Below, piece by piece: positions 4,656-57,732 of a stretch of 64,000 nt of DNA. Position numbers and translations under genes: made by a program. The stretch spans positions 310,001 through 374,000 of the forward strand of contig NZ_JACNML010000001.1 in NCBI RefSeq assembly GCF_020005365.1. Direction: 5' to 3'. The notes under the pieces were generated by a model. The model ran no database searches. It was not told where the DNA came from and saw only the letters and a program-made list of their open reading frames with translations. Origin of the DNA: Kangiella shandongensis (GTDB taxonomy: Bacteria; Pseudomonadota; Gammaproteobacteria; Enterobacterales; Kangiellaceae). Each line of letters starts with the position of its first letter. Within the stretch, counting starts at the first letter, position 1.

Positions 4656-4741
4656 TCTGACTTTTCAATTTGACAAACTAGGTAAAATATCAGGGCTCTG
4701 CTATTATTGAGCTACCTGATTATATTCTATAATTACATTTA

Positions 4742-6520
4742 ATGGCCTTAATTCCGCAGCAGTTTATTCAAGAACTACTGGCTCGAATCGATATTGTCGA
4801 TTTGATCGACTCGCGTATTCCGCTGAAAAAAGCTGGCGCGAACTATAAGGCATGCTGCCCTTTCCATGGTGAAAAAACACCCTCTTTTACCGTCAGTCAG
4901 GATAAGCAGTTTTATCACTGCTTTGGTTGTGGTGTTCATGGCAATGCCATTAGTTTTGTCATGGAGTATGACCGTCTTGAATTTCCGGATGCAGTAGAAG
5001 AACTCGCAGCCAGTTTGGGGCTGGAAGTACCGCGCGATGACAATGCTCCCAGCCGTCCTAAAGTCGACGCCTCGCTGTATGAGCTGATGAATAAAATCGC
5101 TAAGTTCTATCAGCGTCAACTGAGCTCACCACAAGGCAAACCAGCCGTAAACTATTTAAAAAAACGCGGCCTGAGTGGTGAAATCGCGAAACGCTTCGCT
5201 ATCGGTTATGTGCCAAGTGAATGGCGTAACCTGGAAAAAGTCTTTCCACAACTGAAAACGGATCAAACGTTACAGAAACAGCTGATCGACTGTGGCATGC
5301 TGATCAAAAAAGACAACTCCATGTATGATCGCTTTCGTGATCGCATCATGTTCCCGATCAAAGATAAACGCGGACGCGTTATTGCCTTTGGTGGCCGTAT
5401 TATTGATCAGGGAGAACCTAAGTACCTGAACTCACCAGAAACACCAATTTTTCACAAGAGTAACGAGCTCTACGGGCTATATCAGGCACGTCAGGCCAAC
5501 CGTAAGCTCGAACGACTGCTGATCGTCGAAGGTTATATGGATGTGGTCGCGCTGGCTCAATTTGATATCAATAACGCTGTCGCAACGCTTGGCACCGCAA
5601 CCACCGAAAGTCATCTGCAGCAGTTATTCCGCGCCACCCGCGAATTAGTGCTATGTTTCGATGGTGACCGGGCAGGACGTGACGCGGCTTTACGTGCTTT
5701 GGAGCACGGACTGTCTCAACTGCGTGATGGGAGAGAAATAAAGTTAATGTTTCTGCCAGACGGCGAAGATCCGGACTCAATGGTGAGAAAAGTGGGTAAG
5801 GATGAGTTTCTACAACAGGTAGCGCAAGCCATTCCGCTGTTTGAGTTCTTACTGGAACATTTATCCGCCCAGGTTGATTTAGAATCGGTCTCCGGACGCG
5901 GTCAGCTGGTGCATCTGGCAAAGCCCTACCTGGATAAGGTTACCGACCCGATTTATCATGAATTTTTCAGTAACGCACTGGCCGAAAAGGCCCAGCTATC
6001 CGTAGAGAAGCTAGAGAAAATTATTGAGCAGCCACAACAAGCGACTAAGCCCGTATCACAACCTAAACAGACGACCAACGGCCAAAAGATCAACAAAACC
6101 ATCCAATTGGCGTTGACTTTGTTGTTGCAAAAACCACAGTTAGGGCTCAGTATAAAGAACGTAGCATGGCTGAAAACACTGCCGGAGAAAGGCCCAAAAC
6201 TCTTGTACCAACTCCTTGAAATTATTCATAACAACCCCAAGATCAGTACAGGTACCCTGCTGGAATATTGGCGTGACCATGACAAGCTATACAACCGACT
6301 GGCGCAACTAGCCGTGGTTGAGCGTGAAGAGCGCATGCAGGGTAATGAACAGGCAGAGCTTAATGACTGCATGCAGCGGCTATTAAGACAAGCTCAGACC
6401 CAGCGTCTGGACTATTTAAGGCTAAAAGATAAACAATCCGGCCAAAAGTTAACGACAGCAGAAAAATCCGAATACCAGCAATTACTATTGTTGGCCAAAC
6501 AAAAGCCCCAAAAGCGTTAG
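4742..6520 (+). CDS. dnaG: DNA primase
   Basis: The 592-residue primase synthesises RNA primers at the replication fork with DnaB. The N-terminal CHC2 zinc finger is complete (C39, H42, C60, C63). The TOPRIM core shows LLIVEGYMDV with its catalytic Glu and LCFDGDRAGRDAA with the acidic metal ligands. The last 150 residues are the less conserved helical DnaB-binding domain. Length is usual. No Shine-Dalgarno sequence is visible before the ATG. A TATAAT at 4728-4733 lies only eight bases from the start, so transcripts from it would be nearly leaderless; otherwise it is read from the rpsU promoter. Confidence 0.97.
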   Translation: MALIPQQFIQELLARIDIVDLIDSRIPLKKAGANYKACCPFHGEKTPSFTVSQDKQFYHCFGCGVHGNAISFVMEYDRLEFPDAVEELAASLGLEVPRDDNAPSRPKVDASLYELMNKIAKFYQRQLSSPQGKPAVNYLKKRGLSGEIAKRFAIGYVPSEWRNLEKVFPQLKTDQTLQKQLIDCGMLIKKDNSMYDRFRDRIMFPIKDKRGRVIAFGGRIIDQGEPKYLNSPETPIFHKSNELYGLYQARQANRKLERLLIVEGYMDVVALAQFDINNAVATLGTATTESHLQQLFRATRELVLCFDGDRAGRDAALRALEHGLSQLRDGREIKLMFLPDGEDPDSMVRKVGKDEFLQQVAQAIPLFEFLLEHLSAQVDLESVSGRGQLVHLAKPYLDKVTDPIYHEFFSNALAEKAQLSVEKLEKIIEQPQQATKPVSQPKQTTNGQKINKTIQLALTLLLQKPQLGLSIKNVAWLKTLPEKGPKLLYQLLEIIHNNPKISTGTLLEYWRDHDKLYNRLAQLAVVEREERMQGNEQAELNDCMQRLLRQAQTQRLDYLRLKDKQSGQKLTTAEKSEYQQLLLLAKQKPQKR

Positions 6521-8659: not shown

Positions 8660-8736
8660 GGGCCCGTAGCTCAGTTGGTTAGAGCATCCGACTCATAATC
8701 GGCAGGTCCCCCGTTCAAGTCGGGGCGGGCCCACCA
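8660..8736 (+). tRNA. tRNA-Ile2 (anticodon CAU)
   Basis: A full 77-nt cloverleaf with encoded CCA: acceptor stem GGGCCCG/CGGGCCC, D-loop AGCTCAGTTGGTTAGAGC, anticodon loop CTCATAA with CAT at 8694-8696, T-loop GTTCAAGTC and A73. CAU could mean Met or lysidine-modified Ile2. The GGGCCC acceptor stem and position just after rpoD (as ileX in E. coli) favour Ile2, which reads AUA after TilS modification. An elongator Met tRNA is the alternative. Confidence 0.88.
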
Positions 8737-9050
8737 TCACTCTTACATGCCTTACTGTTCCTTGTTTATCAAACTGTATTTGGTGGCATATGTGATAACT
8801 TCTGTCACTAGTTATTTCGACGACTCCTTTCAAATCTTATACAGCAAAAAGCTCTGATCGACAGTATGAAAAGAAGGTTACAGCGTGCTGCATGGGATAA
8901 GCAGTTTCGAGCTTAGTTATTATTTAGTTAAATATAGGTACACTTTTTTGCATTGCATTCGTACATATTAACCCCAAGGCAGAAAGTATCAGGCCACGAG
9001 GGCCTGCTCTTTATAGTTTTACAGCTCACCAATACCCAGTCGAGCAAAAG
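8737..9050. other. 314-base intergenic stretch after the tRNA
   Basis: No convincing gene. A 16-codon ATG frame at 8866-8916 (MKRRLQRAAWDKQFRA) has no ribosome site. A small stem CAGGCC/GGCCTG at 8990-9006 lies 45 bases beyond the stop of the leftward amidohydrolase and may end its transcript, without a clear T-run. Confidence 0.35.
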
Positions 9051-10436
9051 TTAATGAGCTCTTTCCCCACTCTGATAGACGGCAACAATGTCTCGAACAT
9101 TGGAAATATCTTGTGTCGGGTCACTGCTGAAAACGACAAAGTCTGCTCGCCAGCCATTCTCCAGTCGACCTAGTTCATTTTCTCGGTGAAGGACTTTAGC
9201 ACCGTTTACAGTAGCTAGCTTGAGTACCTGCATCGGAGGTATTCCTGCTGAGGCCAGCAACTCCATTTCCTGATGGAAGCTTTCACCAGGTATTACCCAC
9301 GGATTACCAAGATCAGTGCCCACACTGAGTAAAACCCCTTGCTCATGCAGCTGCTTTACAAATTCAAGTACCTTAGGCCAAGTCCTTTGTGCATTTTGAT
9401 AATCTTTTTCCTGCCAACCAATATTGAAGTGATAAAAGTCTCGCCAGTTCTTAAGGTTTCCTGGGTAGGCTTGTTGTAACATCGTAGTGTCCGTGACACT
9501 CTCCTGATCCGCAAAGAATGCGTTGTAGAACACGATAAGTGTTGGGTCGACGGCGGTATTCTGCGCTACTAGCTCACGAAAAAGTTCCCGCATCGGCTCA
9601 CTGTTAAGTTCCATATATTGATACCACTGATACCAACTAACACTCCCTGGACGCTTAGCCTTGATGTAAGCATCACCTGCTTTAGCTGTTAGCAGTTCTG
9701 ATGAAATTGGCATTGCGTGAACCAGGTGATCAATGCCCAGATTTACACCTTGGGTCCAGCTAACTTCCTCAAGGTGGGCAATCACCGGAAGGTTGTGCTG
9801 CTTAGCACGCTTAATGGCAACTTTAATTTGCTCTTCACCGAGACCAGTGTAGAGCTTAATGAAATCAACACCCATTGCCGCCTGACGATCGACTGTTGCT
9901 ATAATGTCATCCTCATCGCTAACAATATCAACCAGACCGTCAAAAGCTTCCGTATTGATGATGCTTCCCGCAACAAAGGCTCGAGGACCAGCTACTTTAC
10001 CGAGAGTTTGAGCTTCCCTATATGCAATGTTCGTTGCCGTGTCACCACCAGGGTTACGAATACTCGTGACTCCAGCTTTCAGCAACTGCTGACCGTTCCA
10101 GCGCGCTATATCAAGAGAGTTATCAGCCTTAAGGACCATGGTTTCATTGGCTACTTCATAACTCACTGCACCGAGGTTGATATGTGCATGAGTATCAATA
10201 AACCCCGCACTGACATAATTTCCCCTTAGGTCTACTGTTTCTACTGATTCAGAAAGCTTGAGGCTTGGCTCCCCCTGACCCACCTCAACGAAATGACCAT
10301 CATCAACCACAAGATAGCCATTAGGTAGCACTTCAGAGCGTTCAGGAAAAATTAAAGCTGCGTTTTTATACAAGGTCTGACCCTGTGCAAAAACAAGGTT
10401 TGGTATTAGCAACGCACAAAAAAGTATTCGGTACAT
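9051..10436 (-). CDS. Secreted metal-dependent amidohydrolase
   Basis: The 461-residue protein starts with a Sec signal peptide (MYRILFCALLIPNLVFAQG, cleavage near residue 18). It then shows the amidohydrolase layout: a beta-sandwich segment, FIDTHAHINLG with the HxH metal site, GVDFIKLYTG with a possible carboxylated Lys, VIAHLEE and HLVHAMP histidines, and SVGTDLGNPW with the last metal Asp. It resembles imidazolonepropionase-like or Xaa-Pro dipeptidase (prolidase-type) amidohydrolases. The substrate cannot be named. An AAAGGA site precedes the ATG. It lies downstream of the ECF sigma operon and has its own copy of the TGTAA-N16-ACGACT element 40 bases upstream, so sigma control is likely. 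Confidence 0.85.
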   Translation of the reverse strand: MYRILFCALLIPNLVFAQGQTLYKNAALIFPERSEVLPNGYLVVDDGHFVEVGQGEPSLKLSESVETVDLRGNYVSAGFIDTHAHINLGAVSYEVANETMVLKADNSLDIARWNGQQLLKAGVTSIRNPGGDTATNIAYREAQTLGKVAGPRAFVAGSIINTEAFDGLVDIVSDEDDIIATVDRQAAMGVDFIKLYTGLGEEQIKVAIKRAKQHNLPVIAHLEEVSWTQGVNLGIDHLVHAMPISSELLTAKAGDAYIKAKRPGSVSWYQWYQYMELNSEPMRELFRELVAQNTAVDPTLIVFYNAFFADQESVTDTTMLQQAYPGNLKNWRDFYHFNIGWQEKDYQNAQRTWPKVLEFVKQLHEQGVLLSVGTDLGNPWVIPGESFHQEMELLASAGIPPMQVLKLATVNGAKVLHRENELGRLENGWRADFVVFSSDPTQDISNVRDIVAVYQSGERAH

Positions 10437-10476
10437 AATAAAGTCCTTTAATCACTTAGGTTTGCTTATACTTAAG

Positions 10477-10503
10477 AGTCGTTGCTATTTAGAATTCCTT
10501 ACA
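10477..10503 (-). promoter_or_regulatory. Putative ECF promoter of the amidohydrolase gene
   Basis: On the minus strand TGTAA (10503-10499), exactly 16 bases, then ACGACT (10482-10477), followed by the ATG after 40 bases. It is one of three identical-spacing copies in this locus. Confidence 0.62.
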
Positions 10504-10505
10504 CG

Positions 10506-11066
10506 TTATTCAGATATTTTTTTAAGAACTTGTTTGGACAGATACTCTCGCCACTTAAACAATACGAGAGCTAACATTAATATGGTCTCTGTTACCACCA
10601 CTTGAGCAGTAGTAATGAGCTCCTGTTCGTTAAAAATGGAACGAGCCACAAACAAAATAACCCATACAGCCATAAATATTAGCGTTGCAATAAAGCTCAG
10701 CCGCCAACGGACAATTTCTTGTCGAACTAAATTGATTTGCTCGGTTAGCGAGGCGTTAACCGAGCGCGTGTTAAGTAATCTGATACTCTTCCAGCGACTG
10801 CGATTAATCAGGATATACGTCACCAGCCCCCAACTGCTTACAAAACCCAGCCAAAGTTGCATATAAAGACTACTGCTTCCTAGCAATGACTGAGCGAAGA
10901 AATACCCAGCTCCACACAATATGGATGTTTCCAGTATGATATTTATCGCCATCAGGACAAATTGACGACGGTACTTTTTAGTTAACTTGGCTAACTGCGG
11001 TGCAGGCTCACTAACTTTTGACTGCCATAAGCGCGATAAAGCAGCTAGGTCATCTGATTCTTTCAT
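10506..11066 (-). CDS. Membrane protein coupled to the ECF sigma factor, possible anti-sigma factor
   Basis: I do not recognise a family. The 186 residues comprise a charged cytoplasmic start (residues 1-32), two close membrane helices (about 34-53 and 67-87), a basic helical linker, and two more helices (about 123-142 and 151-168), so four membrane spans. Its start overlaps the sigma gene stop by four bases, so the two are made together. Cotranscribed membrane proteins next to ECF sigma genes are commonly anti-sigma factors. However, no zinc-binding His-x3-Cys-x2-Cys motif is present, and the N-terminal 32 residues (with LSRLWQSK) would have to provide sigma binding. Confidence 0.62.
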   Translation of the reverse strand: MKESDDLAALSRLWQSKVSEPAPQLAKLTKKYRRQFVLMAINIILETSILCGAGYFFAQSLLGSSSLYMQLWLGFVSSWGLVTYILINRSRWKSIRLLNTRSVNASLTEQINLVRQEIVRWRLSFIATLIFMAVWVILFVARSIFNEQELITTAQVVVTETILMLALVLFKWREYLSKQVLKKISE

Positions 11067-11569
11067 TTATCAACTCCTGCCATTAACTCAGAAAGTTTGT
11101 GTTTAGCACGATTCAGCCGTACGGCTACATTGGATTCGCTTAGTCCCAGAACATCGCTAATTTCAATATTACTCAAATCCTCGAGCTTAAGCATAAGGAC
11201 CTGGCGTAAGCTTAATGGTAAGCGCTGTAGCATTAGAGCGAGTTGCTCTTGACGTTGATCGTACTGAAGTGCGGTCTCAAGACTGGAGTTCTCATCAAGC
11301 AACTCACTATCAAGCATCGTCTCACTAGCTCGGCTGTAGCGTCGAATATGATCAACGCCAACGTTATGGATAATACGGTAAATGTACGTTTTCAAGGTGG
11401 ATTTGTTATTAAACCGAGGGAGCCCACGCCAAACTTCTAACGCCATTTCTTGCGCCAGCTCTTCGCGTAATGCTGGACGAATCTCATAACCTGAAGCTGA
11501 GTGCACTATATTTGGCCAAAACCTTTGGATGATCACATCATAGTCGTTAAAGTCATTTTCTTTTGCCAA
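11063..11569 (-). CDS. ECF-family RNA polymerase sigma factor
   Basis: The 168-residue protein has only sigma regions 2 and 4, as ECF factors do. Region 2 includes ELAQEMALEVWRGLPRF and STLKTYIYRIIHNVGVDHIRR; region 4 is LPLSLRQVLMLKLEDLSNIEISDVLGLSESNVAVRLNRAKHKL with a helix-turn-helix. The start is TTG at 11569, with GTGGAG eight bases before; no usable ATG lies nearby. The downstream membrane protein overlaps by four bases. A TGTAA-N16-ACGACT element ends 38 bases before the start, suggesting autoregulation. The trigger is not visible. The subgroup was not assigned. Confidence 0.92.
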   Translation of the reverse strand: MAKENDFNDYDVIIQRFWPNIVHSASGYEIRPALREELAQEMALEVWRGLPRFNNKSTLKTYIYRIIHNVGVDHIRRYSRASETMLDSELLDENSSLETALQYDQRQEQLALMLQRLPLSLRQVLMLKLEDLSNIEISDVLGLSESNVAVRLNRAKHKLSELMAGVDK

Positions 11570-11607
11570 TCGTCAAGCTCCACTGGAAATATATTTCTTA
11601 CTATCAC

Positions 11608-11634
11608 AGTCGTTGAAGAGTCAAAAATATTACA
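11608..11634 (-). promoter_or_regulatory. Putative autoregulated ECF promoter of the sigma gene
   Basis: TGTAA (11634-11630), 16 bases, ACGACT (11613-11608) on the minus strand, 38 bases before the TTG start. It is arranged back to back with the rightward copy eight bases away. Confidence 0.65.
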
Positions 11635-11642
11635 AAAACTTA

Positions 11643-11669
11643 TGTAAGAAAAAATTTTTGGACACGACT
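11643..11669 (+). promoter_or_regulatory. Putative ECF promoter of the divergent small membrane protein
   Basis: TGTAA (11643-11647), 16 bases, ACGACT (11664-11669), 51 bases before the ATG at 11721. Same spacing and sequence as the two leftward copies. Confidence 0.65.
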
Positions 11670-11720
11670 ACATTAATGAACTTTATACCAAATTAAAATG
11701 TTTCTAACAGGAGAAAAGTA

Positions 11721-12002
11721 ATGACATTGCTTAATCGTTTACAGACTATTAATAAAAAGCTGGCACTCTCTGTTATTTGGTCCATAGTCGTGCTCAGCTG
11801 GCTAATTACGGGTGGGATATTATTATTTGGTGTCTCAAAGAATGCGTTAATTATTCTTGTTACTATAGCCGCTGTACTTACAGAAACTGGCTTTTGGTTA
11901 ACGGCACTGCTGCTCGGTGTCGCTATAGTCAATGCTCGCCGTGCCGTCCTGACAAAAGTTAAAGCTCTCATAACAGGCAGAGTATTTAGTGCGGACAAAT
12001 GA
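11721..12002 (+). CDS. Small two-helix membrane protein, likely ECF regulon member
   Basis: The 93-residue protein has an amphipathic start, two strongly hydrophobic spans (about residues 15-38 and 42-70) and a basic tail. I do not recognise a family. A good AGGAGAA ribosome site lies before the ATG, so it is likely a real gene despite its size. It is transcribed away from the ECF sigma gene, and a TGTAA-N16-ACGACT element faces it, which points to a function in the same envelope response. The tail RRAVLTKVKALITGR should lie in the cytoplasm under the positive-inside rule. Confidence 0.68.
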   Translation: MTLLNRLQTINKKLALSVIWSIVVLSWLITGGILLFGVSKNALIILVTIAAVLTETGFWLTALLLGVAIVNARRAVLTKVKALITGRVFSADK

Positions 12003-12120
12003 TCTTACAGGTTGATATATCGGCTAATCAACACTAATACCCAGCGATAATAGCTTAAGTTTTTGCCAATAAATGCCCTCTCAGCTAACCTTTTCGCTGG
12101 GTTTGCAGCTGACTGATCGT

Positions 12121-12162
12121 ATTAACACATAATCGCTGGGGTTCAGGCTATTATGTGTTAAT
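12121..12162. repeat. Perfect 13-bp inverted repeat
   Basis: ATTAACACATAAT (12121-12133) and its exact complement (12150-12162) flank a 16-base spacer in the gap between the small membrane protein and the leftward deacetylase. There is no T-run. It could be a factor-independent 3' end of both convergent units, or a protein-binding site. Confidence 0.55.
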
Positions 12163-12212
12163 GATGCGAGATATGAGATAGGGCTGTTATTATATTTTAT
12201 ATAGCACCGGCT

Positions 12213-13118
12213 CTAGTGATTAATCACTTGCTGCATAAATAGTTTTTCTAAATACCGTTCATCCAGATTCTTATGCCACAACCCCTTTCTTTGGCCGTTG
12301 ACCAGAGCTATTTCACCAATCCGACCAGGATTAAACTTTAAGACTCTATCGACTTTATACTTCGCTATGTCATCACTATAGGCTTCGTCGGGAGTGATAA
12401 TATTCCAGCCGCGTATTCTCAGTTCTTTAACCAGATCACCGATGAAGAGAGCGGAAATATCCATTTCATGCAGTAATAAAACATGCTTAGGTGATCGTCC
12501 TAAATGTTCCTGAGCCATTTCATCATAGTATTCGATACTTTCTATCAAGAGCTGCACATAAAACTGACTCATCTTCTCCATATCAATGTCATGCCCTTCC
12601 TTAACAGCGTTTTGAAACAACGACTCAATATACCAGTCATAGTTATTCAAAGTGATGTAGGCATTTTTATAGCCGTGCTTGTTAAGCAACTTGCGCATAC
12701 CGTCTCGCTTTTCGGCGGTATTACCTTCTCTTAAATAAGGAAAACGGAACAGTTTTCGAAAATTATTGAACTGCTGGAGTTTAACATCAGCTAATAGGAA
12801 GTCTTTTGAATAGTCTTGCAAAGATAGCTGGTTAAAGTCTGGGTGACTGTGGGTATGGTTAGAGATAATGTGCCCAGCCTCACTGTAAGTGTTTAGGCGT
12901 TCTATGCCCTCCGCGTCCAAGCGCTTACTGACAGAGAAGAAAGCCACCTGCTCTACGTTATGTTCTTTCAGCTCGGCGACTAACTTTTTCGCTCGAGTAG
13001 GCCCATCGAAATAACCCGAGGCACTTCTTGGTGAATCATCAAACGTAATAGCGATTTCTTTTGCTTCCGATAAAAACACCGTCAGTAGCAACAGTATTGT
13101 CAATAGTATTTTTCTCAT
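12213..13118 (-). CDS. Secreted polysaccharide deacetylase (NodB domain)
   Basis: A signal peptide (residues 1-19, ending SEA) precedes a NodB carbohydrate esterase 4 domain: AITFDDSP gives the catalytic base and metal Asp, SNHTHSHPDF supplies the two metal His residues, and FRFPYLREG is motif 3. The 301-residue protein should remove N-acetyl groups from a glycan in the periplasm or outside the cell. The C-terminal part carries a LLLHEMD motif typical of motif 5. The start region has no strong ribosome site. It is a single gene flanked by A+T-rich gaps. Confidence 0.88.
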   Translation of the reverse strand: MRKILLTILLLLTVFLSEAKEIAITFDDSPRSASGYFDGPTRAKKLVAELKEHNVEQVAFFSVSKRLDAEGIERLNTYSEAGHIISNHTHSHPDFNQLSLQDYSKDFLLADVKLQQFNNFRKLFRFPYLREGNTAEKRDGMRKLLNKHGYKNAYITLNNYDWYIESLFQNAVKEGHDIDMEKMSQFYVQLLIESIEYYDEMAQEHLGRSPKHVLLLHEMDISALFIGDLVKELRIRGWNIITPDEAYSDDIAKYKVDRVLKFNPGRIGEIALVNGQRKGLWHKNLDERYLEKLFMQQVINH

Positions 13119-13416: not shown

Positions 13417-16233
13417 ATGAAAACAATAGCATTGACCACCACCTTAATTCTCCTGTCTTTAACCGGCTGTGAACAAGAGTCTCAGGATAAAGCAGCAGAA
13501 GTAGAGGCAAATACAACAGTCGTTCAATCGCTGGCAGAGCAGCAATCCAAAGAACAGCAAACACTGGATAAGCAAACTAAAGAAGCCCTTGCTAACTCTG
13601 ACTACCCGGAAGAGGTACCAACAGGCCGCTTACCCGAAGGGATCGCACCGACTCAATATGATGTTCAACTGAAAGTCGATCCGGACAAACCGACGTTTAG
13701 CGGAACAGTCACTATCGATCTCGCTCTGGATATACCAACCGCTCATATCTGGCTTCACGGTAAAGATATTACACCAAGCAAAGTTACGATCACTCCAGAG
13801 GGTAAATCCGTTATACAGGCTCGCTATGAGCAGCTTGATGACACGGGCGTTGCGAAACTGTCGCTGGAACACCCTGTTACGACCTCAACCGCAACGCTAG
13901 TTATAGAATACGAGGCACCTTTTAATGAGGCGTTAGAAGGCTTGTACCGGGTTAAAGACGGCGAGCTTAATTATGCCTTTACCCAGTTTGAAGCCACTGC
14001 GGCACGCCTGGCTTTTCCCAGCTTTGATGAACCCGCATTTAAGGTTCCTTTCACCTACACACTCACCGTCCGTAATGAGCACAGGGCATTTACCAATACG
14101 CCAGCGATTTCAGAGACGGACTTAGGTAACGGCTGGAAAAAAATCGTCTATGCCAAGTCCAAGCCTCTGCCTACGTATTTAATCGCCTTTGCTGTTGGCG
14201 ACTTTGACGTTGTCGAATGGCAGGATATCCCAGCAACAGAAGTTCGTGATCGCACGATTCCTCTGCGCGGCATTGCGACCAAAGGCAAAGGCCATCGCCT
14301 GACTTATGCCCTGAAAAACACCAAAGACATTCTAAATTCTCTCGAAGACTACTTCCAGATTCCATACCCTTATAAAAAGTTAGATATTGTAGCGGTGCCT
14401 GACTTCAACGCAGGCGCCATGGAAAATGCGGGCTTAATCACTTATCGTGAACAACTGTTATTGTTCGACAATACGATTTCTCTCGGGCAGAAACGCGCCT
14501 ATATGAATGTTCATGCGCACGAATTAGCGCATCAGTGGTTTGGTAACTTAGTCACTCCAGTCTGGTGGGATGATATTTGGTTGAATGAAGCTTTTGCAAC
14601 CTGGATGGCACACGTTTCCAACGACAACATCTATCCAGAGCAAAAATTTCGACAGGCTCTTCTCGAGCGCTCTTTGAGCGTTATGGCATCTGATAGCTTG
14701 ATCACTGCGCGCCAGATTCGTCAGCCAATTCAGAGCAATCACGACATTCAGTCAGCTTTCGACGGTATCACCTACTCGAAAGGGGGCGGTGTGTTAAGTA
14801 TGCTCGAGGCCTTTCTGGGGCCTGAGAACTTCCGCTCGGGGATCCAGCATTATATGCAAAAGTTCGCATTTGATAATGCTACAGCACAGGACTTTATTAC
14901 CGCCATTGGTGAGAAGTCACCTCAAGTGCCATTAGAAACTATTCAAAATGCATTCAATAGCTTCCTTGAGCAACCGGGGATCCCGCATCTTAATATTGAA
15001 CTGACTTGTGATGAGTCGAAGCAATCCGTTATCAAACTGTCACAGTCACGTTATTTACCTCTGGGCTCGAAAGGCTCGACCAGGCAAACTTGGAAAATTC
15101 CGGCCTGCTTTAAGTATGCCATCGACGGTAACCAGCACCAGTTATGTGAAGTGTTGGAGGGTAAAAACCAAACGATAGAACTGCCTGAGCAAGGCTGCCC
15201 AGCCTATTTTATGCCGAATGCCGATGGCGCTGGCTATTATCGCTTCAGCCTGTCCCACGATGGCTGGCAAGCTCTTCTCAATAATAAAGCTCAGCTCAGC
15301 ACCCGAGAGCTTATGTCGGTCAATAACAGCTTACAGGGTGCTATCAACGCTGGGAAATTAACCTTTAGCGATTTGATCGATATTGCTCCCCAAATTATTG
15401 CTTCCGAGTCAGCGGCAACGGTGATGGGACCGAGTCAACTGTTCAGCTTTGTCTATCATAAAGTGGCACAAAATGATGAGCAAAAAGCAAAGCTGGCAAA
15501 GTTGAATCGAGAACTTTACGGCCAGCGCCTGACAGAGCTCGGCCTTGAAAATAAAAAAGGCGACGCCGTTAATACCATCAAGTTACGTAACGATCTGATT
15601 AACTTTCTGGCCAAAGAAGGTGAAGATAAAGCCGTGAGGCAGTATCTGACGGACATGGCCGTAGCCTATACCGGTTATCAGGAAGACGGTAATATCCATC
15701 CCGATCGCGCTGATAGCAACATTATCGGAACTGCCCTCCAGGTCGCCACAGAAGATCTCGGCACTCCGTTTGCCAAGCACCTGAGAATGCTGCTTGAGTC
15801 ATCCAACGACGGTACCGTTCGTGGCCGCTTGCTCGGTGGCTTAGGTGCGGTAAAAGATCCACAGTATGCGGCAGAACTGCGTGAACTGGTTTTGTCAGAA
15901 TCGCTACGTGATAATGAGATATACTCAATTCTATTAGGCCAGTTGAATGACGAAAAGTTACAGGAGCCGATGTGGGAATGGTTTAAGGCCAATATCGATG
16001 CTGTCAAATCCAGAATTCCACCGTTCGGCCAACACCGCATGCCGATCATAGGCCGATACTTCTGTTCCGCGCCAATGAAGAAAGACTTTATTCAGTTCTT
16101 TAAACCTATTGTTGATGAACTGGCTGGCGCACCACGTCCTTACCAACAGAGCATTGAGTCGATAGAGCTCTGTATAGCTCAAGTTAAGTTCCATAAGGAG
16201 GACGTAGAAAGCTACCTTTCCTCGCCACAATAG
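13417..16233 (+). CDS. M1-family zinc aminopeptidase, lipoprotein
   Basis: The 938-residue protein begins with a lipoprotein signal (lipobox LTGC, lipid on C18), then an acidic linker of about 50 residues. The M1 catalytic domain shows the exopeptidase loop GAMEN at 333-337, the zinc motif HELAH at 368-372 and the third ligand E391 in NEAFATW. The C-terminal half is an ERAP1-like helical repeat domain. It is therefore an envelope-anchored aminopeptidase that trims peptides outside the cytoplasm, distinct from cytoplasmic PepN. It is monocistronic, with an intrinsic terminator 12 bases after the stop. The residue after the lipid Cys is Glu, so outer-membrane transport is expected. Confidence 0.93.
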   Translation: MKTIALTTTLILLSLTGCEQESQDKAAEVEANTTVVQSLAEQQSKEQQTLDKQTKEALANSDYPEEVPTGRLPEGIAPTQYDVQLKVDPDKPTFSGTVTIDLALDIPTAHIWLHGKDITPSKVTITPEGKSVIQARYEQLDDTGVAKLSLEHPVTTSTATLVIEYEAPFNEALEGLYRVKDGELNYAFTQFEATAARLAFPSFDEPAFKVPFTYTLTVRNEHRAFTNTPAISETDLGNGWKKIVYAKSKPLPTYLIAFAVGDFDVVEWQDIPATEVRDRTIPLRGIATKGKGHRLTYALKNTKDILNSLEDYFQIPYPYKKLDIVAVPDFNAGAMENAGLITYREQLLLFDNTISLGQKRAYMNVHAHELAHQWFGNLVTPVWWDDIWLNEAFATWMAHVSNDNIYPEQKFRQALLERSLSVMASDSLITARQIRQPIQSNHDIQSAFDGITYSKGGGVLSMLEAFLGPENFRSGIQHYMQKFAFDNATAQDFITAIGEKSPQVPLETIQNAFNSFLEQPGIPHLNIELTCDESKQSVIKLSQSRYLPLGSKGSTRQTWKIPACFKYAIDGNQHQLCEVLEGKNQTIELPEQGCPAYFMPNADGAGYYRFSLSHDGWQALLNNKAQLSTRELMSVNNSLQGAINAGKLTFSDLIDIAPQIIASESAATVMGPSQLFSFVYHKVAQNDEQKAKLAKLNRELYGQRLTELGLENKKGDAVNTIKLRNDLINFLAKEGEDKAVRQYLTDMAVAYTGYQEDGNIHPDRADSNIIGTALQVATEDLGTPFAKHLRMLLESSNDGTVRGRLLGGLGAVKDPQYAAELRELVLSESLRDNEIYSILLGQLNDEKLQEPMWEWFKANIDAVKSRIPPFGQHRMPIIGRYFCSAPMKKDFIQFFKPIVDELAGAPRPYQQSIESIELCIAQVKFHKEDVESYLSSPQ

Positions 16234-55515: not shown

Positions 55516-57732
55516 CTAGTTTTTCAAGCCCCGCTTGATAATTTTTGGTGTCACAAAAATTAACAGCTCTTCTTTCGCATCTTCACGAGACGTATTTCTG
55601 AACAACCAGCCTAATAGAGGAATATCGCCCAATAGCGGAACTTTTGTTTCATCGTACTTGGTCCGGTGCTGGAAGATACCACCTAAGACAATGGTTTCAC
55701 CATTGTCTACCAAGATCTGGGTACCTATTTCCTGGGTATTAATTGCAGGAGCACCGCCCACGGCAAAGCCATCAGCTGTCGTAAACACAACTTCATCACC
55801 ACGTGTATCCTGACTGATTGATAAATCAAGGAACACTCTGCCATCCGGGGTAATTTGTGGTGTTACTTTTAGTTCTAATACAGCTTCTTTAAACTGAATA
55901 TTTGAAGCACCGGAAGAGCCGCCCTGCAAGTATGGAATTTCTTCACCTGCTTTAATAAAGGCTTCTTTCTGATTGGCTGTAATCACTTTCGGGCTTGCCA
56001 CGACTTCACCACGATTTTCAGCTTCCATGGCCGATAGCTCCATGTCGACAATAATCCCCTCGGCAAGCCTCGCAAAAGATAAGCCTAATGAGCCCGCAGG
56101 GTTCGCCACAGGCAAGTTCACGTTAAGTCTCTCAGGAATAGAACCGATGCTATTAGGGTCTTCACCTTCCACAATAATGTTATCGTTATTTACGACAGCT
56201 CCGCCGATCGTTCCTGATACGGTACCCTCTCTCGAGTTAAACTTATCCGTCACACCAAAGCGAGCACCTAAATCACGGGCAAAGCCATCACTCGCAGTTA
56301 CTAAACGGGCTTCAATTAATACCTGCTCAACCGGTCTGTCGAGTTGAGAAACCAAGTTTCTGACCTCTTCAATCTTTGAAGCAACGTCTTTTACGATTAA
56401 TGTATTAGTACGAACATCAATAGATACCGCGCCACGCGCAGATAAAACACCGACAGTTTGATCAGCCGACGTTGAACCCGTTGAATTTGATGTTGTTAAT
56501 TTAGATGGCGATAGTAACGAAGCAATTTCAGCAGCTTTTGCGTAATTTATTTGTATCAGCTCAGTTCTAAGCGGAGCCAACTCTTCTTGCTGCTTATTGG
56601 CTTCAAGCTCCTGTTGTTCGCGCGCCGCGATAACGTCTGCAGGAGCAACCATCATGACGTTACCTTCCTGCCGCTTATCAAGGCCTTTAGATTTTAGGAT
56701 AATATCCAGAGCCTGATCCCATGGCACATTGACCAGATTCAGGGCCATAGAGCCTTGAACGTCATCACTGATGACAATATTGATCCCGGCAAAATCACCT
56801 AAAGTATGCAATATTGCCTTTAAGTCCATATCCTGGAACTGAAGGGTTAAGCGTTCACCTGTATACTTCGGCTTCTCACGTTCACGCTTTTCAATTTCCT
56901 GTTTAGTCAGCGGCTTCAGCTCGATCGTATAAAGATCGTCGGCCTGATATGCCAGGTAATCAAAACGATCATTACCACGCACAGATAAACGCACCGTATC
57001 GCCTCGACGTGAGGTTTCGACAAGTTGGGCGGGCGTGCCGAAATCAATAACATCCAGACGGCGAACAAAATCAGGATCAATATCACTACCAATAAAGTCT
57101 GCAATCACCGTTCGACCTTCCTGACGCAGATCAACGTTAACATTTGGTGAGCCAAGACTAACCAGAACACGGCCCTCTCCAGAAGTGCCGCGACGGAAAT
57201 CAACCCCTGTGATATCGAACTGAGAATTCGCAGTATAGCTTGCGTCTCTACTGGACTTTGAAGTACCAGCCTGAGCTGTAGAGGCCCCCGCATCCAAAGT
57301 CACTACATAAGCATTCCCTTGGATTTGACTATTATAGGAAACCAATTCGGACAAGTTGATCACCACACGAGTTCGATCTTGGGCTTCGATAGCCGTTACA
57401 GAGCCGATTGCGCCGACCCCAACATCTTTTGTCTTATAATCGAGTGCAGAGCTGACTCCAGCAAAATCCATTGAGATTCGAGCCGGGCTGTCAGTCGTAA
57501 ACTCCTGTGGCGTTGGTGGTACATCAGAATAGCTCAGCCGTACCATTACCTTGTCGCCAGGTAACACATTATAGTCAATCGACTGTAACTGACTGGCATG
57601 GACACCCCATGAAAACAGCATAGCTCCCGCCAACACTGAACAACTCTTTACTAACTTCTTCATCTTTATCAACATAGTCGTTTTACCCAATTCTGACTTG
57701 TTCATCCGTTCTTCATTTATAATTCGCATCAT
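55516..57732 (-). CDS. pilQ: Type IV pilus secretin PilQ
   Basis: PilQ forms the outer-membrane pore for pilus extrusion. The 738 residues include a signal peptide (ending VHA), one or two AMIN domains (residues about 55-270) that bind peptidoglycan, an STN-type N0 domain (LTLQFQDMDLKAILHTLGDF), an N1 domain (AEIASLLSP), and the C-terminal secretin with VEARLVTA and the GGIFQH signature. The chosen ATG (57732) follows GAGGG four bases after it, but gives 23 residues before the hydrophobic core; starts at residue 10 or 20 are alternatives. pilP ends seven bases upstream. Confidence 0.95.
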   Translation of the reverse strand: MMRIINEERMNKSELGKTTMLIKMKKLVKSCSVLAGAMLFSWGVHASQLQSIDYNVLPGDKVMVRLSYSDVPPTPQEFTTDSPARISMDFAGVSSALDYKTKDVGVGAIGSVTAIEAQDRTRVVINLSELVSYNSQIQGNAYVVTLDAGASTAQAGTSKSSRDASYTANSQFDITGVDFRRGTSGEGRVLVSLGSPNVNVDLRQEGRTVIADFIGSDIDPDFVRRLDVIDFGTPAQLVETSRRGDTVRLSVRGNDRFDYLAYQADDLYTIELKPLTKQEIEKREREKPKYTGERLTLQFQDMDLKAILHTLGDFAGINIVISDDVQGSMALNLVNVPWDQALDIILKSKGLDKRQEGNVMMVAPADVIAAREQQELEANKQQEELAPLRTELIQINYAKAAEIASLLSPSKLTTSNSTGSTSADQTVGVLSARGAVSIDVRTNTLIVKDVASKIEEVRNLVSQLDRPVEQVLIEARLVTASDGFARDLGARFGVTDKFNSREGTVSGTIGGAVVNNDNIIVEGEDPNSIGSIPERLNVNLPVANPAGSLGLSFARLAEGIIVDMELSAMEAENRGEVVASPKVITANQKEAFIKAGEEIPYLQGGSSGASNIQFKEAVLELKVTPQITPDGRVFLDLSISQDTRGDEVVFTTADGFAVGGAPAINTQEIGTQILVDNGETIVLGGIFQHRTKYDETKVPLLGDIPLLGWLFRNTSREDAKEELLIFVTPKIIKRGLKN

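Follow-up and report, generated by a model that had tools for sequence, protein, structure and literature searches.

What reads the three identically spaced sequence elements that lie within 1.2 kb in the genome of Kangiella shandongensis, and which genes do they control? Within the 64-kb stretch of DNA that was analysed (the window), an exact pattern search found TGTAA-N16-ACGACT three times, at the coordinates and on the strands reported in the initial annotation, which had attributed these sites to a local ECF sigma factor. Our preferred reading, to which we assign a probability of roughly 0.88, is that the locus encodes an autoregulated ECF sigma/anti-sigma pair, that its own sigma factor would read the three elements as −35/−10 promoters, that the regulon is local, and that the locus was probably gained horizontally.

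The first of these elements (11634-11608, minus strand) lies before the predicted sigma/anti-sigma operon, the second (11643-11669, plus strand) before the divergent gene of a small membrane protein, and the third (10503-10477, minus strand) before an amidohydrolase gene; all three are exact matches to an ECF-type promoter of the form TGTAA-N17-CGACT. The sigma and small-protein promoters stand back to back, with 8 nt between their −35 elements. The distances from site to start codon (38 nt for sigma, 40 nt for the amidohydrolase and 51 nt for the small protein) are as originally claimed and agree with the ORF coordinates. In 100 shuffles of the window the TGTAA-N16-ACGACT pattern occurred 0.02 times on average, with no shuffle containing three copies, and the 26 contigs (2.80 Mb) of the draft genome contain no further exact copy. 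Relaxing the gap to 15–17 nt retrieved six sites genome-wide, including the three locus promoters, with the remaining three falling within ORFs of 662, 481 and 204 aa. One of these ORF-internal matches, with a gap of 17, is in the window itself (55978-56005), so that the earlier statement that other ACGACT occurrences in the window lack a TGTAA partner holds for gap 16. A scan for sigma70 promoters retrieved 4 sites, against 7.0 expected.

Three genes of the locus, those for the sigma factor, the amidohydrolase and the small protein, had been described in the initial annotation, and a fourth, directly downstream of sigma, had been left out. The sigma gene (11569-11063, minus strand) encodes a 168-aa protein of the ECF group (group 4), whose members typically have about 170–200 aa, with regions 2 and 4 above the Pfam cut-offs (Sigma70_r2, 4.4e-13; Sigma70_r4_2, 4.3e-11), no match to region 1.1 or 3, and a match to the TIGR02937 sigma70-ECF model above its cut-off. 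Translation begins at a TTG codon at 11569, as in the called ORFs of two homologous loci (L064 and L065), and this start may result in a low basal level of sigma. The previously omitted gene (11066-10506, minus strand), whose start overlaps the sigma stop codon, encodes a 186-aa probable membrane anti-sigma factor with four hydrophobic stretches in a simple scan, preceded by an N-terminus of about 35 residues that carries an LxxLWQ sequence. This protein has no Pfam or NCBIfam match at E 0.1, and neither the Hx3Cx2C motif nor the ASDI or zf-HC2 domains by which class I (ASDI/zinc) anti-sigma factors are defined.

The amidohydrolase gene (10436-9051, minus strand, ATG start) encodes a 461-aa protein (Pfam Amidohydro_1, 8.5e-25) with an N-terminus that by eye resembles a signal peptide. 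It is nearest to prolidase/Xaa-Pro dipeptidase-like enzymes, and its profile matches the structures of an Xaa-Pro dipeptidase (PDB 2qs8, 6.2e-28) and a possible prolidase (2p9b, 2.6e-26), from which it differs by the signal-peptide-like N-terminus. The best NCBIfam match, to Xaa-Pro dipeptidase NF051886, reaches 111.6 bits, under the curated cut-off of 500, and the enzyme is accordingly termed prolidase-like by family only. The divergent gene (11721-12002, plus strand, ATG start) encodes a small hydrophobic, presumably membrane, protein of 93 aa with no Pfam match. Further along the window, Pfam identifies a polysaccharide deacetylase (13118-12213, minus strand) and an M1 aminopeptidase (13417-16233, plus strand). 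A terminator-like hairpin at 8990-9006 follows the amidohydrolase gene, although such sites are no commoner than in shuffled sequence, and an inverted repeat with a 16-nt stem (12121-12162) follows the small-protein gene; the two inverted repeats bound the cassette.

In the proposed mechanism, the ECF sigma factor would read the three −35/−10 promoters, and the 186-aa membrane protein, produced from the same operon, would hold it at the inner membrane via the short cytosolic N-terminus. An envelope signal would free the sigma factor, which would then raise the expression of its own operon (autoregulation), of the secreted prolidase-like amidohydrolase and, through the promoter back to back with that of sigma, of the small inner-membrane protein. 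Sequestration by a membrane protein, signal-triggered release and induction are the standard logic of ECF systems. Sigma binding, anti-sigma action, membrane topology, secretion, the envelope signal and the substrate of the enzyme are what we infer in this scheme, and the name "envelope response" is likewise suggested by the signal-peptide-like N-termini and hydrophobic proteins.

Orthologous loci were found in Aliidiomarina shirensis (L064), Aliidiomarina sanyensis (L065) and a further genome (G407; locus L126), all belonging to a different family than the window. Their sigma factors are 52–58% identical to that of the window, and the three loci contain the same four genes, arranged as in the window; such a sigma is present in 3 of 17 genomes of the Aliidiomarina-type genus. 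The motif TGT[A/T]A-N17-CGACT appears with identical spacing in 12/12 promoters (sigma, amidohydrolase and small protein, in the window and the three orthologous loci), with TGTAA in 11 of them and TGTTA in the small-protein promoter of L065, and the spacer sequences vary among the 12. The −10 element had originally been given as ACGACT; CGACT is indeed conserved, but the leading A, present in 8 of the 12, is one base too many. Absence of the motif from the corresponding promoters of orthologous loci had been named in the initial annotation as an observation that would refute its proposal; the motif is kept in every one of these promoters, and the proposal survives this test. The small protein has homologues in divergent position in 3/3 of the other loci, with 40–47% identity. 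In L126 the amidohydrolase (4712-5533) is truncated to 273 aa, while the predicted ECF promoter before it and the gene for the small protein are retained.

Searching 394 genomes of the order with a four-sequence profile (up to nine candidates scored per genome) retrieved at least 46 matches at E 1e-25, in at least 38 genomes. These 46 matches, together with L065 and two G407 loci, form a set of 49 loci, from which L066 and L067 (28% and 32% identity), L077 (a weak match from the same genus) and L111 (a duplicate of L064) were left out. In 25/49 of these loci the motif [T/C]GTAA-N18-GACT lies in the 450 nt that precede sigma, and in 6/49 it is present with a gap of 19 (the L124 copy seemingly lying within an upstream gene); each remaining gap between 8 and 30 was found in 0–1 loci, and 200 shuffles gave a mean of 0.13 and a maximum of 3. 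In six loci (L071, L120, L124, L132, L136 and L152) the motif is located about 3.5–3.8 kb upstream of sigma, 24–74 nt before a hydrolase gene that apparently heads the sigma operon. The motif is thus found in 36/49 loci in total: 25 with gap 18, five with a convincing gap 19, and the six far-upstream cases.

The other 13 loci have no exact motif before sigma or the putative operon head. Five of them (L076, L127, L158, L159 and L160) carry sigmas that fall outside the main clade, some on long branches; within the main clade, a grouping drawn post hoc after the tree, the motif is present in 36/44 loci. The remaining eight are L072, L119 and L138 along with L068, L074, L121, L128 and L137, and the latter five, as well as L076 and L159, show near matches to a looser pattern that were not counted. 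Within the window's own family the closest locus is L068; its −10 element reads CACT instead of CGACT, and its upstream copy begins about 315 nt ahead of the sigma gene. L072, which has a hydrolase-ABC-sigma row and is partly masked, showed no motif in the 332 nt available before the hydrolase.

Among 22 loci of other ECF sigmas, the motif was found in none at gap 18 or 19 (L011 and L027 being represented by shortened upstream regions). Of 398 genomes sampled across the phylum, 5 had a match at E 1e-40, all from the same order, and a search of plasmids retrieved 14 distant sigmas, all below 60% identity. A literature search whose coverage lay outside the main ECF reclassification found no such ECF clade; the TGTAA/GACT strings that turned up in one paper (PMC3445524) are primers.

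An ORF of 151–236 aa with hydrophobic stretches directly follows sigma in 48/49 loci, the exception being L160, and a simple hydropathy scan gave four such stretches in 30 of the 48 partners, three in 13 and two in 5 (the called start of the L121 partner is internal). A WQ pair near the N-terminus is shared by 41/48 partners, with W alone in the other 7 (L068, L074, L076, L127, L128, L137 and L159). All seven are among the 13 loci without an exact promoter, a coincidence that may reflect mere distance. Beyond the orthologues, identity to the membrane partner of the window is 13–19% (alignment of 11). Because of its position, hydrophobicity and co-conservation, the 186-aa protein is probably the anti-sigma factor.

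This organization resembles that of ECF sigma factors with membrane anti-sigma partners, such as RpoE/RseA, in having a two-domain sigma (regions 2 and 4), an adjacent membrane-protein gene and a fixed-spacing −35/−10 promoter before its own operon. The code differs, being TGTAA...CGACT here and GGAACTT...TCAAA in RpoE-type promoters, and the partner differs from RseA in its four hydrophobic stretches and in having no recognised anti-sigma domain. Many ECF promoters contain an AAC core in the −35 element and CGTC in the −10 element, features that are common rather than defining, and the TGTAA/CGACT consensus departs from both. A likeness can also be drawn to CnrY (class II-type), described in PMC7406223 as having a short N-terminal segment with two helices that reach sigma4 and sigma2. 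By analogy, the N-terminus of the 186-aa protein could form two such helices, and the relatives of the window sigma with a solved structure include CnrH (4cxf). Unlike CnrY, the 186-aa protein has several hydrophobic stretches.

The predicted regulon is essentially local and very small. TGTAA-N18-GACT occurs at 16 sites in the genome, of which 11 are ORF-internal, 3 are the locus promoters and 2 appear intergenic. The L052 site overlaps an apparent gene start, and a scan found no downstream start within 250 nt. The L165 site (1501-1527; G000:C21:246770-246796) reads TGTAAG...TGACT with a gap of 18 and stands 34 nt before a gene (1466-465, minus strand) whose 333-aa product has a signal-peptide-like N-terminus; the −10 element of the site is TGACT, unlike CGACT, and we consider this gene a candidate fourth member. 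A larger genomic regulon was considered and rejected on this distribution of sites, with L165 the sole candidate kept. TGTAA-N17-CGACT has 4, 9 and 11 sites in the Aliidiomarina-type genomes G395, G404 and G407, the first two corresponding to L064 and L065. Of these sites 1, 7 and 8 lie outside the locus; in each genome one of them falls in a tRNA-Thr gene, and any others are ORF-internal. The classification of one site (L178) as ORF-internal was also rejected: the ORF had been extended upstream, and the site is the predicted amidohydrolase promoter of A. sanyensis.

In sister clades the same predicted promoter precedes hydrolases and small membrane proteins of other kinds. In L153, L155 and L157 a divergent promoter with a gap of 19 precedes an amidohydrolase, and the L157 enzyme shares 37% identity with that of the window across 444 aa. 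Next to the amidohydrolase comes the gene for a small protein with a homologue in L156. The L156 small protein, divergent to sigma, matches Imm_superinfect (PF14373) and stands alone under the divergent promoter, with no amidohydrolase in the 9 kb examined. A different kind of divergent small protein, coiled-coil-like by eye, is present in nine other loci, and the one of the nine that was tested has no Pfam match. In L071 (890-5384) the row consists of an alpha/beta hydrolase, an ABC ATPase, a permease (ABC-2 transporter), sigma and the membrane protein; judging from distance and a similar first gene, the same row is likely in L120, L124, L132, L136 and L152. The amidohydrolase-linked sigmas and that of L156 form one clade with weak support (81/87), in which the window sigma groups with Aliidiomarina (98/90).

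These targets bear on what the module is for. It is conceivable, though doubtful, that it serves a nutrient response (peptide scavenging by a secreted dipeptidase) rather than stress or defence, a view compatible with the mechanism proposed above. The prolidase-like target enzyme points in this direction, as does the recurrence of hydrolases and peptidases (alpha/beta hydrolase, S9) as targets or neighbours of the homologues. However, small membrane proteins recur as targets too, and they are retained in two loci, one with a truncated amidohydrolase (L126) and one with none found in the 9 kb examined (L156), which fits an envelope role better.

As for the reader of the motif, it is quite improbable that the promoters are recognised by another ECF sigma of the same genome. 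ECF promoters can cross-talk, and the genome contains 8 sigma-like matches, the sigma of the locus included; but the motif goes with this sigma family in different genera and families, is missing before the 22 other ECF genes of relatives, and its intergenic copies in the genome cluster at this locus. Marginally less credible still is a palindromic operator, in which a dimeric repressor would bind the TTACA-N8-TGTAA of the divergent intergenic region and GACT would be incidental. Two inverted TGTAA elements do occur 8 nt apart in the window, but the amidohydrolase site has a single TGTAA, and over the 17 loci compared the distance between inverted elements ranges from 5 to 21 nt, whereas TGTAA and GACT are separated by 18 nt, or by 19 in a minority of loci; we rejected the palindromic operator because of this variation. 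Chance coincidence, for which one could cite the short half-elements, the 13 further TGTAA-N18-GACT sites in the genome and a backward control pattern that is commoner still (30 occurrences), is refuted by conservation and has practically no probability left, as 11 of the 13 are ORF-internal and three sites in 1.2 kb plus the 12/12 orthologous promoters far exceed it. The original claim that the sigma factor of the locus reads the motif, autoregulates and drives the amidohydrolase and small protein is in turn supported by those 12 promoters, by the spacing conserved across more distant homologues and by the 0/22 count for other ECF sigmas.

The cassette lies directly after rpoD and tRNA-Met (8660-8736), at a spot whose content varies in congeners. 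The region 8740-12225 is without a DNA match in the 19 congener genomes searched (up to 15 candidates scored per genome; two of the genomes are 55% and 86% complete); of its flanks, the rpoD/tRNA-Met side matches 18 of these genomes and the M1 peptidase side 13. None of the congener sigmas among the matches listed exceeds 34% identity, and in G005, G010 and G001 other genes occupy the space of the cassette. In G005, a genome without the sigma, the deacetylase homologue adjoins another amidohydrolase gene (L196:2644-4952), whose product shares only 24% identity with that of the window, and no motif was found at this gene. Because the cassette is unmatched in congeners, and because of the tree, we favour horizontal gain: the cassette with its promoters was probably acquired by this species, beside the tRNA. 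The alternative is loss in the congeners combined with transfer to Aliidiomarina, which is consistent with the presence of sigma, the membrane-protein gene and the amidohydrolase in L068 of the window's own family.

The motif, its spacing and conservation, its link to the sigma family, the operon layout and the absence from the 19 congeners are all read directly from sequence. Tentatively, the locus may belong to an uncharacterised ECF clade in which [T/C]GTAA, a gap of 18–19 nt, GACT and the membrane anti-sigma factor are fixed, and the cargo is swapped by clade: an amidohydrolase with a small membrane protein, an alpha/beta hydrolase with an ABC exporter, a coiled-coil-like small membrane protein, or a superinfection-immunity-like small protein. 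The clade would then represent a portable, peptide-responsive envelope module, with the small membrane protein as constant effector and the secreted enzyme as an optional one. One code placed on differing cargo in sister clades would offer a natural experiment in how ECF regulons swap targets and keep their DNA recognition, and the K. shandongensis locus provides, for this ECF clade, a testable set of sigma factor, putative anti-sigma factor, promoters and targets with a clear code.
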